DNA of 64,000 nucleotides from positions 558,001 to 622,000 of the forward strand of contig JAKSYS010000001.1 of assembly GCA_022925895.1 (NCBI GenBank), in the 5' to 3' direction. Both the position numbers and the translations under genes were made by a program. Positions within the stretch are counted from its first letter, which is position 1. Each line of letters starts with the position of its first letter. Source of the DNA: Fragilaria crotonensis. Its lineage: Eukaryota > Bacillariophyta > Fragilariophyceae > Fragilariales > Fragilariaceae. A model generated the notes under the pieces. It worked only from the letters and a program-made list of their open reading frames with translations. It did not search any database and was not told the DNA's origin. Positions 1 through 9,795 of the stretch are shown here, piece by piece.

Positions 1-3000
1 CAACCCGGAGAAACTGACGATGGCAACAACTTCGTCGATAGTGACAACGCCTCCATCTCTGGGTCCGTCAAGGACGACAGCCAAACACCTCTTGTTGGTG
101 TCAAGATTTCGTTGAGTAATTCGACTGGCGTTGTTGCCACCACGCTGACGGATGCTGGGGGCTTGTACGAGTTCACGGGCTTGGAGCCTGGCCCATACAC
201 GGTGACTGAAACGAACCCTGATGGATACAAGACTGACATCAGCGATGGCGATACCAGCTTCGACGGTGACGCAACTGATGGTGTTCTTACGCCCCCTGAT
301 AATGCCATCTCTGTGACTCTTATGCCAAGCGAGGCGGACGCGAATAACGACTTCGTGGACAGCAACAAGGGCAGCATTTCGGGCCGCGTTGTCGATGACA
401 AGTTGAATCCGCTTGCGGCTGTGATCCTCAGTCTGAATCAGGGAACGACTACTGTTGCGACAACTGTGACCGCCGCTGATGGTTCATACAAGTTCACCGG
501 GGTTGCACCTGGTGATTACTCCGTGATCGAGATCAACCCTGATGGCTATCCAAGTAATGTTCGCGATGGTGACACGGATCCCGACGGCGATATTGGTGAC
601 GCAGACACAACTCCCGACAACTCAATTCTTGTGACAGTTGAGCCTAGTGAGGATGACGTTGGCAACGACTTTGTCGACAGCAACAACGGTTCGATTTCGG
701 GTAGTGTGAAGGACGACAACGGCAATCCAATCCCCGGAGTGACGGTGGCGTTGGTTGACAACAATGGCATCACTGTGGATACCGCAACGACGAATGCCGG
801 TGGCGGATATGTGTTCAACGAGGTTGAGCCAGGCCAGTACACTGTGGTTGAGACGCAACCAGCGGGTTACCCTAACAGTGTCAGTGATTACGATGAAGAT
901 CCTGACGGTGATGCTGAAGATGTTGATAAAACAGTGGACAACAAGATCAATGTCACGCTCAAGGCAGGCGAAGCCGACAAGGAGAACAATTTCGTTGACA
1001 GTGACAACGGCAGTATCTCTGGTAGCGTGTTCGATGACAATGGTAACAGCCTTCCAGGTGTCGTTATTACCTTGCTCGATGGTAATCTTGATGTTGTTCA
1101 GACCACGACAACTGATGGAATTGGAGCGTACAAGTTTTCAGAGGTCGAACCCGGCAGCTACACCGTCGTTGAGGTTAACCCTCCTGGATTCCCAAGTGAC
1201 TTGAGCGACTATGATAACACTCCGGATGGCGATGTTGGCGACAGCAATACTGATGTCGACAACACGATTCCTGTGACTTTGAAGCCCGGCGAAAACGACG
1301 ACGGCAACAACTTCGTTGACGGAAACAATGCTGCTATTTCTGGAACCGTGAAGGATGACGAGGGCAAGCCCTTGTCAATGTGAAGATTGAATTGCTCCAA
1401 GGTAGCACCGTCATCAGCAGCACGTTGACGAATGATATCGGTAACTACACTTTCAGCGACGTCGAGCCTGGTGACTATGTTGTGAAGGAGACCAATCCCG
1501 TGGACTATCCGAAGAACTTGAGTGATGGGGACGTCAGCGACGACGGAGATGCAGATGACTTGTCCACCACGCCTGATAACTTGATCAAGGTAACCCTGAA
1601 GCCTGGTGAGCTTGATTCTGACAATGACTTTGTTGACAGCAACAACGGATCTATTTCTGGGACCGTGAAGGATGATGAGGGTAAGCCACTTGCTGGTGTC
1701 GAGATCGAGTTGCAGAAGCCGGATGGAACTGTTGTTGCAACCACCACTACCGGAACCAATGGAGCTTACATTCCCTGACGTGGAGCCTGGTTCGTACGTG
1801 TTGGTGGAGAAGAATCCAGCCGGATATCCTGGTGATGTGAGCGACTACGACACGACGCCGGATGGTGATGCCGGAGAGGGCGTTGTGAATGCTGACAACA
1901 AGATTCCTGTCACCCTTGAGCCTGCTGAAGATGACAATGGCAACAACTTTGTGGACAGCAACAACGGCTTGATTTCTGGAACCGTGAAGGATGACCAGGG
2001 CAATGTGTTGCCAGGAGTGAAGGTGGAACTTTTGAACCCCGACAAGAGTGTGTTGAAGAGCACAGTGACTGACTCGAGTGGTTTCTATGTGTTTACCGAG
2101 GTGGAGCCAGGCACGTACGATATCAAGGAGACGAATCCTTCGGGTTTCCCACTGAATGTGAGCGACTATGACGCTAGTGACGACGGTGATGCCGCCGATT
2201 CCGACAGAACAGTGGACGATCTCATCGGGGTCACCCTGAAGCCAGGCGAGGAGGATACGGACAACAACTTTGTCGACAGCAACAACGGTGCCATCACCGG
2301 AACAGTGAAGGATGACAACGGCAATCCAATTGCCGGTGTTCTGATTGAGCTGCAACGCATCGACGGTGCCACGGCGACTGTTGTTGGCACGACGACGACG
2401 GACTCCAACGGAGCGTACGATTTCAGCGAAGTTGAGCCTGGCACGTATAAGGTTGTTGAGACGAATCTCGCGACGTACCCAGACAATGTTAGTGATTATG
2501 ATACTACACCTGATTCAGATCCTCTGGATCTTTCGAAGATCGTCGACGACGTTGTTGATGTGAAGTTGAATCCTGGTGAGACCGATACTGGCAACGACTT
2601 TGTTGACAGTGACAACGGCAAGATTACCGGAATCGTGACCGACGACAAATTGATTCCGCTCAGCAGCGTTTTGCTGACACTGAAGAACTCGACGGGTGCC
2701 GTTGTGTCGACAACGGTGACGAACGGCAACGGCATTTACGTCTTCGATAACGTAGAACCCGGCAACTACACAGTGGTGGAGACCAACCCTGATGAATATC
2801 CGGCCGATCTGTTTGACAAGGATTTCACCAATGACTCTGATCCGACGGATAGCGACACTACTGTTGACAATATCATCGGTGTGACCGTGCAGCCTGGAGA
2901 AACTGACGATGGCAACAACTTCATGGATAGCAACCTCGGTACAATCTCTGGATCTGTCAAAGATGACGACGACAGTCCGCTTGCTGGCGTGAAGATTACA

Positions 3001-8519: not shown

Positions 8520-9795
8520 TCGGCTGCCAATTCCGGATTCTACACGTGCGCCGACGTCTGCGCCAATTCCGCGTGGCTCTCCCATTTCTCCTCCTGATTT
8601 CTGTGCCATAGTTCCTGATCCAACGTGTAAATTGTGCGCCCCTTCGCGTTCGTTGGGTACGTGGAAGTTTCGCTTCTGTTCAGAGTTATTTCTTGCTTCT
8701 AACTCTTTTCTTTGCTTAGATTATTGCAATGTTAGTGAGTCATTCCCAACGTTGATTCAGAACCGCACTGTCGCTGTTCGTAGCAACCCTACGGCTGTGG
8801 CGACTGAAGGGTACTGGTTCCATTACCTCGAAGATAAGGTTGCGGCCTATCTTCTCACTGTCGAGCAAGAGGTATCGGCTCCAGAAATATTCTGCTGCGT
8901 CACGAGTGCCTCAGAGTTGAGCTCTTGCTTTTTGTATGATGTGCCTCCTTCTGTTGATGGTGTGGTTATCAAAGCCACGAACTTCCATTCTAGTCAAGGT
9001 GTCTACGTCCTTGTGCCCAATCCGGCTGGCAATGGCACTATCAATTTGCTCGATAACTCTATCATCACATATGCCGAGGTCGTTGCGGAGCTCTCGTTAA
9101 TGCAGGCTACGAAGATCATTGTTGAGGAGTTCGTCGGTACTAGCCTTCCGACGGAATACAAGTTCCACGTCGTCAACGGCGATGTCGTTGCGATTGATAT
9201 CATCACAGGCCGTGGTGCTGATTGTCCTTGCTACGCTGTCGTTGACAAGAACTGGAATCGCCTTGATCAATTTGGTTGCTTTGAACCCGGTGGCATTGGA
9301 AATGTTGAAGCCAACGGATGTACTTCAATTGATTTCATAACCGGAAGGCGTCGTGCCGGCCCTGTGAAGAAGAATTTGTACATCTGTGACGATGACAGCA
9401 TTCCTTCGGATTTGGACGAATGCCTTAAGCAAGAAATGCTGACGATTGCCTTGGAAGCTGGGGCAAGAATCGGTGTATACATTCGCGTTGACATGTTTGT
9501 TGTTGGTGGCAAGGTCTACGTCCAGGAGTACACCACTAACCACATGAATGGGTTGCGTCACTGTGCTGCCAAGTTCGACCCGCTGACTGGTTGCATTGAT
9601 AGTTGCTTCATTGGTCGTGCCTGGAATGCAGCTGGTGCCCCATATGGTGGAGTTCCCACAACTGTGCCTTCCGCGTTGACTGGCTTTTATGCACTCACAC
9701 CGCAGCAGCAGTGCGACTTGTTGATTGGTGTACAGCCTCCTGTTCATGACTCCACTTGCACTGTAGGTACCGCGCCACCTAAGCCTTTCCCCTAA
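1..9795 (+). CDS. Giant SdrD-B/Cna-B-like repeat protein with C-terminal ATP-grasp-like domain (5' end outside window)
   Basis: The gene enters the window already open and ends at the TAA at 9793. From 1 to about 8520 it encodes beta-sandwich repeats of about 105-115 residues. Each carries a G-S-[IV]-[ST]-G start, a [YF]-x-F-x-x-[VL]-x-P-G-x-Y core, an acidic D-Y-D-x-x-P-D-G-D loop and an N-[ND]-F-[VIM]-D end, of which I count 27. This is the pattern of SdrD B / Cna-B-like domains; the Asp-rich loops are likely calcium sites. From about 8740 a unique cysteine-containing C-terminal domain resembles ATP-grasp enzymes of the TupA type. An adhesive or cell-wall role is an inference from the repeats. 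The reading frame changes eight times (about 1376, 1768, 3329, 6320, 6353, 6896, 8043, 8467), always inside near-identical repeats and never in the unique C-terminus. The signal peptide, if any, lies upstream of the window. Confidence 0.85.
6131..8519 (+). repeat. Two-domain, 690 bp higher-order repeat with Ser/Pro/Thr linkers
   Basis: The 3' end of the array has its own period of about 689-690 bp (230 residues): the same junction occurs at 6831, 7520 and 8210. Each period holds two B-like domains joined by a linker rich in Ser, Ala, Pro and Thr ([18 protein letters not shown]) that is absent from the upstream units. The linker looks like an extended, possibly glycosylated spacer. Confidence 0.8.
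8657..8719 (+). other. Probable 63 nt in-frame intron in the SD-repeat gene
   Basis: GTACGT donor at 8657, pyrimidine-rich tract and TTGCTTAG acceptor ending at 8719. The length is a multiple of three and contains no stop, so the reading frame is open either way. Removal joins S-R-S-L to D-Y-C-N-V. It lies exactly between the repeat array and the ATP-grasp-like domain, which suggests a domain-fusion border. Confidence 0.6.
8740..9792 (+). other. ATP-grasp-like (TupA-type) domain of the SD-repeat protein
   Basis: Readable signatures, in order: V-I-K-A followed by S-S-Q-G-V-Y-V-L, fitting the ATP-binding Lys and small-residue loop; K-I-I-V-E-E-F-V-G, fitting the hinge strand; [19 protein letters not shown]; then [25 protein letters not shown], fitting the metal-binding Asp/Glu/Asn strand pair. 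This order matches my recollection of TupA-like ATP-grasp ligases. The substrate cannot be told. Several Cys residues are compatible with a secreted, disulfide-bonded domain. Confidence 0.6.

Follow-up and report, generated by a model that had tools for sequence, protein, structure and literature searches.

The stretch of DNA considered here (the window) is a 64,000-nucleotide segment of the genome of the diatom Fragilaria crotonensis (contig JAKSYS010000001.1, hereafter C218, positions 558001–622000, in an assembly of 62.1 Mb and 881 contigs), and its left-hand end holds the 3′ portion of a very long gene that encodes an array of adhesin-type repeats followed by an ATP-grasp-like domain, the C-domain. 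The window contains the last 26 of the 40 SdrD-B-like repeats of this gene, which starts ∼6.4 kb upstream. By extending the open frame in the 5′ direction into the preceding 10 kb (L002, C218:548001–558000), the start was placed near L002:3621 (C218:551621). The initial annotation had asked whether such an extension would reveal a signal peptide; a leader, MQLVVASFLLAAGLLASLVTAQ, which by eye is signal-peptide-like, does open the frame there, and leaders that resemble it (again judged by eye) are seen in C132a and in gene B, one of two further genes of this kind (A and B) on C218. The leader is followed by an N-domain of ∼600 residues, in which two Pfam matches exceed their cut-offs, DUF7507 at 2.9e-10 (40.5 bits) and a partial one to IgGFc_binding at 2.9e-7 (30.5 bits). 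The 5′ to 3′ order of the gene is leader, N-domain, 40 repeats, P/S/T-rich linker, 63-nt intron and C-domain, and its coding sequence, calculated from the coordinates with frame changes ignored, is ∼16.1 kb or ∼5,370 codons. We infer that the protein is a secreted, modular product of roughly 5,400 residues, made from one diatom gene and entering the secretory pathway. The features within the window are listed below, with residues numbered as in the C-domain.

1–8520, plus strand: 26 SdrD-B/prealbumin-like repeats of ∼105 aa each, with 14 more beginning upstream in L002 (27-unit profile; Pfam)
1320–8468, plus strand: seven small frame changes in the array, near 1320–1359, 1768–1772, 3324–3330, 6326–6352, 6831–6878, 8043–8047 and 8464–8468 (successive repeat matches in different frames)
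8521–8656, plus strand: P/S/T-rich linker, then a 14-residue stretch leading to the C-domain (sequence reading; related linkers in other copies)
8657–8719, plus strand: predicted intron of 63 nt, gt...ag, in frame (gt...ag at a shared site in seven copies)
8720–9795, plus strand: C-domain, TupA-like ATP-grasp of probable amidoligase type with a cysteine-rich insertion, stop codon TAA at 9793–9795 (Pfam; profile–profile match)
8971–9003, plus strand: putative phosphate-side strand and loop with Lys84 (K in 8 of 10 copies, R in 2 of 10) and His89 (10 of 10) (alignment; IKAGNFHS in a bacterial amidoligase)
9112–9180, plus strand: KIIVEEFVG...EYKFHVVNG, with Glu135, Glu145, Lys147 and Gly153 each in 10 of 10 copies (alignment; profile match)
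9223–9423, plus strand: six invariant cysteines (168, 170, 186, 200, 222 and 234), with ∼32 residues that have no partner in the TupA-type profile (alignment; profile match)
9484–9552, plus strand: RVDMF..., putative metal site with Asp257, Glu269 and Asn273 each in 10 of 10 copies (alignment; profile match)

When a profile made from 27 of the gene's own units was run along L002 and the window, the plus strand gave 46 repeat fragments. When the six pairs of fragments split by frame changes were joined, 40 repeats were obtained, 14 of them starting upstream and 26 starting in the window, in keeping with the initial count of at least 26. Their designation as adhesin-type repeats was also borne out, as three open stretches of the window array match SdrD_B in Pfam with E-values of 1e-38 to 3.5e-107; CarboxypepD_reg and SpaA match too. 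The 31 complete units, putatively calcium-binding in the initial annotation, have a mean identity of 53% and an Asp content of 14.5%, and the median ratio of non-synonymous to synonymous substitution rates (dN/dS) between units is 0.15 (30 of 47 best-match comparisons, the 17 with dS ≤ 0.02 being left out). The protein is like the SdrD-B/prealbumin-like repeat adhesins (PF17210, PF17802 and PF13620) in its repeat family, its long acidic array, its leader and an N-domain placed ahead of the stalk, but differs from them in its ATP-grasp-like end, its eukaryotic host and its intron. It also differs in that the LPXTG motif is absent from all three forward frames of the gene, so that the C-terminal LPXTG anchor by which Gram-positive MSCRAMM adhesins are recognised is lacking. 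Further SdrD_B-type repeat genes were found at C127:55.6–76.9 kb and C332:33.3–40.1 kb (among the 150 of 240 candidates that were scored). The middle repeats of the window gene (1966–5822) are 93–100% identical in DNA, mostly at least 97%, to units of genes A and B, which contrasts with a dS near 0.45 between the C-domains of the three C218 genes; such near-identical repeats would reflect either recent exchange between arrays or an effect of the assembly.

The fusion of the repeats to the C-domain, as initially described, is real, because the same arrangement recurs in the genome, in what is a small protein family. A search with the N-domain gave substantial matches at six loci (three on C218 and one each on C60, C132 and C100), besides three shorter ones spanning 39 to 67 residues, and at all six of these loci the N-domain, repeats and C-domain follow one another in that order on the same strand, with the array of gene A being interrupted by 6.5 kb. 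On C132 the three parts run through in one frame of ∼2,514 codons, broken by a single in-frame TAA within the N-domain. A gt...ag stretch of diverged sequence occupies the intron site in seven copies (this gene, A and B on C218, C132a, C60 and two on C100), and is missing, with its flanks fused, from the C341 copy and from a broken copy on C413. The latter (C413:36117–36827, in L041) is taken to be retrocopy-like, in which case it would amount to natural evidence of splicing at this site.

Searching the genome with the C-domain gave 26 pieces on 11 contigs at E-values up to 10, and C-domains without detected repeats occur at C132:76.6 kb and on C704, C877 and C341. The one on C132, near 76.5 kb, is apparently stand-alone, with what by eye looks like its own leader-like exon. 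On C704, two C-domains are preceded, within ∼0.9 kb and on the same strand, by nidogen-like frames (PF06119, 3e-15 and 5.6e-13), a relationship of physical adjacency only, and on C341 the frame in which the C-domain starts also encodes a PS-rich linker and, by eye, a VWA-like region, for which Pfam gave no VWA match. Copies of this kind, together with the position of the intron between repeats and C-domain, might be taken to mean that the window holds two adjacent genes. The pairing at six of six N-domain loci led us to reject this arrangement, and with the shared intron site and the frame that runs through on C132 except for one TAA, it is extremely improbable. Bacterial contamination was also rejected, since the gene has an intron and the same assembly contains silicon transporters (matches up to E 4e-193).

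The C-domain is encoded in frame 1 (8722–9792), where all of the motifs named in the initial annotation are present. Their order had suggested a TupA-type ATP-grasp, and the comparisons described here uphold that assignment, so that homology of the C-domain to the TupA-type ATP-grasps is firmly indicated at the level of sequence. PF14305, which has a gathering cut-off of 25 bits, shows in all ten of the C-domain copies aligned from this genome when E-values up to 10 are considered (0.054 to 2.3e-11). The C341 paralog, 53% identical to the window copy, gives 44.1 bits (E 2.3e-11) and is the sole one of the ten to exceed the cut-off. ATPgrasp_ST appears weakly in four of the ten copies and Dala_Dala_lig_C in two. 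A profile of the diatom C-domains, aligned by hhalign with a profile of six TupA-type proteins that all match PF14305, gave a probability of 98.75% over 177 columns, collinear over the core; when this was re-run the score was 106.1, whereas the highest score among 100 column shuffles was 25.7 and the reversed profile scored 16.0. The match persists when rows are removed. Without the C341 paralog, the Enterobacter row and the same-genome PF14305 protein L001 the E-value is 4.6e-11, for the seven N-domain–repeat–C-domain rows against four bacterial rows it is 5.4e-09, and for the three C218 rows alone against four bacterial rows it is 2.1e-06, each being a pairwise value with no database correction. 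In addition, a hidden Markov model of the ten diatom domains, run with filters off, matched six of seven reference rows (E 6.7e-13 to 6.7e-4 for the seven-row set), two of these rows being near-identical and the seventh being in the wrong frame.

With the C341 domain, tblastn found three plasmid records (E 3e-3 to 0.2), all of amidoligase type: two are annotated as ATP-grasp fold amidoligases, and the third, H11, is annotated as a glycosyl transferase but is TupA-type by its PF14305 match. With L001 as the query, four plasmid records and no phage were found. A phage search with the C-domain gave four weak partial matches (E 0.4 to 0.5), and no relatives of the domain were found in the viral and prokaryotic genome contig collections by scans with a few short peptide patterns, which may miss distant ones. 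A sequence search of the PDB gave no meaningful match for either the window C-domain or the profile of diatom C-domains, and the top PDB match for the TupA-type profile, a D-Ala-D-Ala ligase, was not significant (E 0.099).

The likeness to PF14305 TupA-like ATP-grasps and amidoligases, such as the C-terminal domain of Cj1438, is collinear throughout the core, between the K/G-loop and the D...E...NG end. Within this core, D257, E269, N273, E135, E145, K147, H89 and G153 are invariant in all ten copies, even though some are as little as 36% identical to the window copy, and Lys84 is retained in each of the seven rows with the N-domain–repeat–C-domain order, the window copy among them. By comparison with the ATP-grasp enzymes, Lys84 would be the phosphate-binding lysine of the first strand, and D257, E269 and N273/NG would presumably be the acidic metal ligands and end motif. 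In a PF14305 amidoligase of an Enterobacter plasmid the motif IKAGNFHS resembles the diatom IKATNFHS; the plasmid gene (L044:1315–2586) has the motif VIKAGNFHSCMGVY, much like its diatom counterpart. The diatom C-domains differ from these amidoligases in having ten invariant cysteines, ∼32 residues with no partner in the profile, and a leader and adhesin-like stalk. Six of the ten cysteines lie between the EYKFH and RVDMF motifs, and the number of cysteines per row is 12 to 16 in the ten diatom rows, compared with 3 to 10 in six TupA-type rows. Ten invariant cysteines are as expected for a domain made in an oxidising compartment. L001 (C398:41782–45558, the protein itself at 43.3–44.1 kb) shares the TupA motif order and scores 59.1 bits to PF14305, but differs from the C-domain proteins in having hydrophobic segments (by eye), no stalk and no cysteine insertion. 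Among the three C218 genes, dN/dS for the C-domain is 0.11–0.12 by NG86 and 0.12–0.16 by YN00, with dS of 0.41 to 0.49; both the C-domain and the repeats are under purifying selection.

Our reading of the gene, which we offer tentatively and at somewhat short of an even chance, is that it encodes a secreted adhesin-like protein whose ATP-grasp domain, of amidoligase type, acts within the secretory pathway. The protein would enter this pathway by way of its leader, and the C-domain would fold there with disulfides. ATP is present in the lumen of the endoplasmic reticulum (ER) and Golgi, and the C-domain would at this point activate a carboxylate as an acyl phosphate and join it to an amine, after which the stalk would carry both the C-domain and its modified product to the adhesive layer or mucilage. 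The likeliest carboxylates, if Cj1438C is a guide, would be the uronic acids of co-secreted mucilage or of a wall glycan. Cj1438C, the TupA-like ATP-grasp C-terminal domain of Cj1438, is described as using ATP to couple the C6 carboxylate of glucuronic acid, through an amide, to (S)-serinol phosphate or ethanolamine phosphate (PMC11800379), and diatom walls are described as holding glucuronic acid, with exopolymers that can contain uronic acids (PMC4584364). The bacterial relative L044 sits between two glycosyltransferase genes. Taken together, this chemistry, these glycans and these neighbours suggest modification of uronic-acid glycans in the secretory pathway as the simplest proposal for the diatom C-domain. 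The cell may thus alter its glue by means of an enzyme domain that is itself part of that glue.

A number of observations weigh against this reading. A stalked, extracellular-looking protein is an atypical place for an ATP-using enzyme. The window C-domain scores 19.7 bits to PF14305, below the cut-off, as do eight of the other nine aligned copies, the nine together ranging from 13.4 to 20.3 bits, and a genome-wide PF14305 search, in which five candidates were scored, gave L001 on C398 as the only site and not this locus. No match to PF14397 was found in the genome, and NCBIfam and PDB sequence searches with the C-domain returned nothing significant. Against L001 alone, the hhalign match of the diatom profile was weak (46%, 31 columns), and the sole structure model, made for the C-domain from a single sequence, had a pLDDT of 33.5 and was unusable. 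Lys84 is replaced by Arg in two paralogs, both outside the group with the N-domain–repeat–C-domain order. Glycosyltransferases flank only L044 of the four annotated bacterial neighbourhoods; L047 has an acyltransferase and a glycosidase nearby, L045 has insertion sequences, and L046 has hypothetical and secretion-system genes. Finally, frame changes interrupt this gene and genes A and B, as discussed below.

In a close rival to the ligase reading, and a quite possible one, the ATP-grasp fold has been reused as a non-catalytic module that binds a glycan, a nucleotide or a metal; the stalk of the adhesin would present this terminal module outside the cell, in surroundings poor in ATP. The occurrence of C-domains after matrix-type partners is in its favour, notably the two adjacent to nidogen-like frames on C704 and the one downstream of the VWA-like region on C341, with their respective limits of adjacency only and of likeness by eye without Pfam confirmation, and so is the Arg found at Lys84 in two of the ten copies. 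Set against this is the invariance of D257, E269, N273, E135, E145 and K147 in every copy despite identities as low as 36%, and a preserved active site therefore fits better than a binding module. A bolder version of the ligase reading, which we consider rather improbable, is that there is a diatom family of self-modifying adhesives, in which a disulfide-stabilised amidoligase, relocated to the secretory pathway and carried on an adhesin, would amide-link the uronic acids of mucilage to amines, perhaps those of the adhesin's own side chains, such that protein and polysaccharide would be joined before export.

The frame changes raise the separate question of whether this copy is decaying while the rest of the family still works. 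There are eight in this gene, seven in the window and one upstream, and the array is consequently not a single open frame; gene A has nine (besides its intron and interruption), gene B has four, and the C132a hits have none. The interruption in gene A is a stretch of ∼6.5 kb without repeat hits (C218:168186–174729, in L025/L026). If the frame changes were genuine, those in this gene and in gene A, along with the 6.5-kb interruption there, would point to a pseudogene. The repeat gene on C127 lies within an open frame of 5,593 aa in the same assembly, which means that not every repeat array is affected by frame changes and that long arrays can stay open, a further point in favour of decay. We nevertheless favour uncorrected sequencing errors in long repeats, because of the pattern of insertions and deletions (indels) between genes A and B and the low dN/dS of the repeats (∼0.15). 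Over 12.7 kb these two genes share 99.5% identity and differ by 52 substitutions and 12 indels. Every indel is frame-shifting and 11 are of a single base, the pattern that uncorrected sequencing errors would leave. The excess of frame-shifting indels is weaker when this gene is compared with A and B over the longest alignments (12 of 16 and 15 of 19, respectively). With dN/dS low in the C-domain as well as in the repeats, a pseudogene is unlikely.

Other features were noticed in the course of the analysis. Large open frames at 37683–45285 of the window appear by eye to belong to a DIRS-type element (reverse transcriptase, RNase H and tyrosine recombinase), and open frames at 57942–59204 and 62820–63926 have a membrane-like segment, the first also containing leucine-rich-repeat-like STIPSEIG units (by eye). 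Elsewhere in the assembly, three silicon transporter matches lie in one 1,456-aa open frame (C97:29749–33762), and two lie in one frame on C771.

Both halves of the protein are of known kinds; it is their pairing, the cysteine-rich form of the C-domain and the secretory setting that appear new, in that none was found in the literature searched. In the titles and abstract openings of work on diatom adhesins and ATP-grasp proteins, a scope that does not take in the study of Craspedostauros australis trail proteins, no such protein is described, which is consistent with the initial statement that no described protein has this pairing. Neither the cysteine-rich form nor the secretory setting of an ATP-grasp was found there, eukaryotic Golgi and lumenal ATP-grasps being included in the search. 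The trail proteins CaTrailin4 and Ca5609 of C. australis, among which sizes of ∼900 kDa and above 1 MDa are reported (PMC11420354), resemble the present protein, from their description, in their great size and modular build and in belonging to the adhesive secretion of a diatom, as is proposed here.

Research on biofouling and biofilms has long asked how diatoms stick and how their mucilage coheres. A domain of ligase type in secreted adhesin-like proteins would bring to this question a concrete and testable chemistry, either uronic-acid amidation or amide links between protein and glycan. If the ligase reading is true, an ATP-grasp enzyme would be placed in the secretory lumen of a eukaryote, where to our knowledge this fold is not known in catalytic form. 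If instead the C-domain only binds, the fold would have been put to a new use, and in a module found in several protein contexts of one genome.

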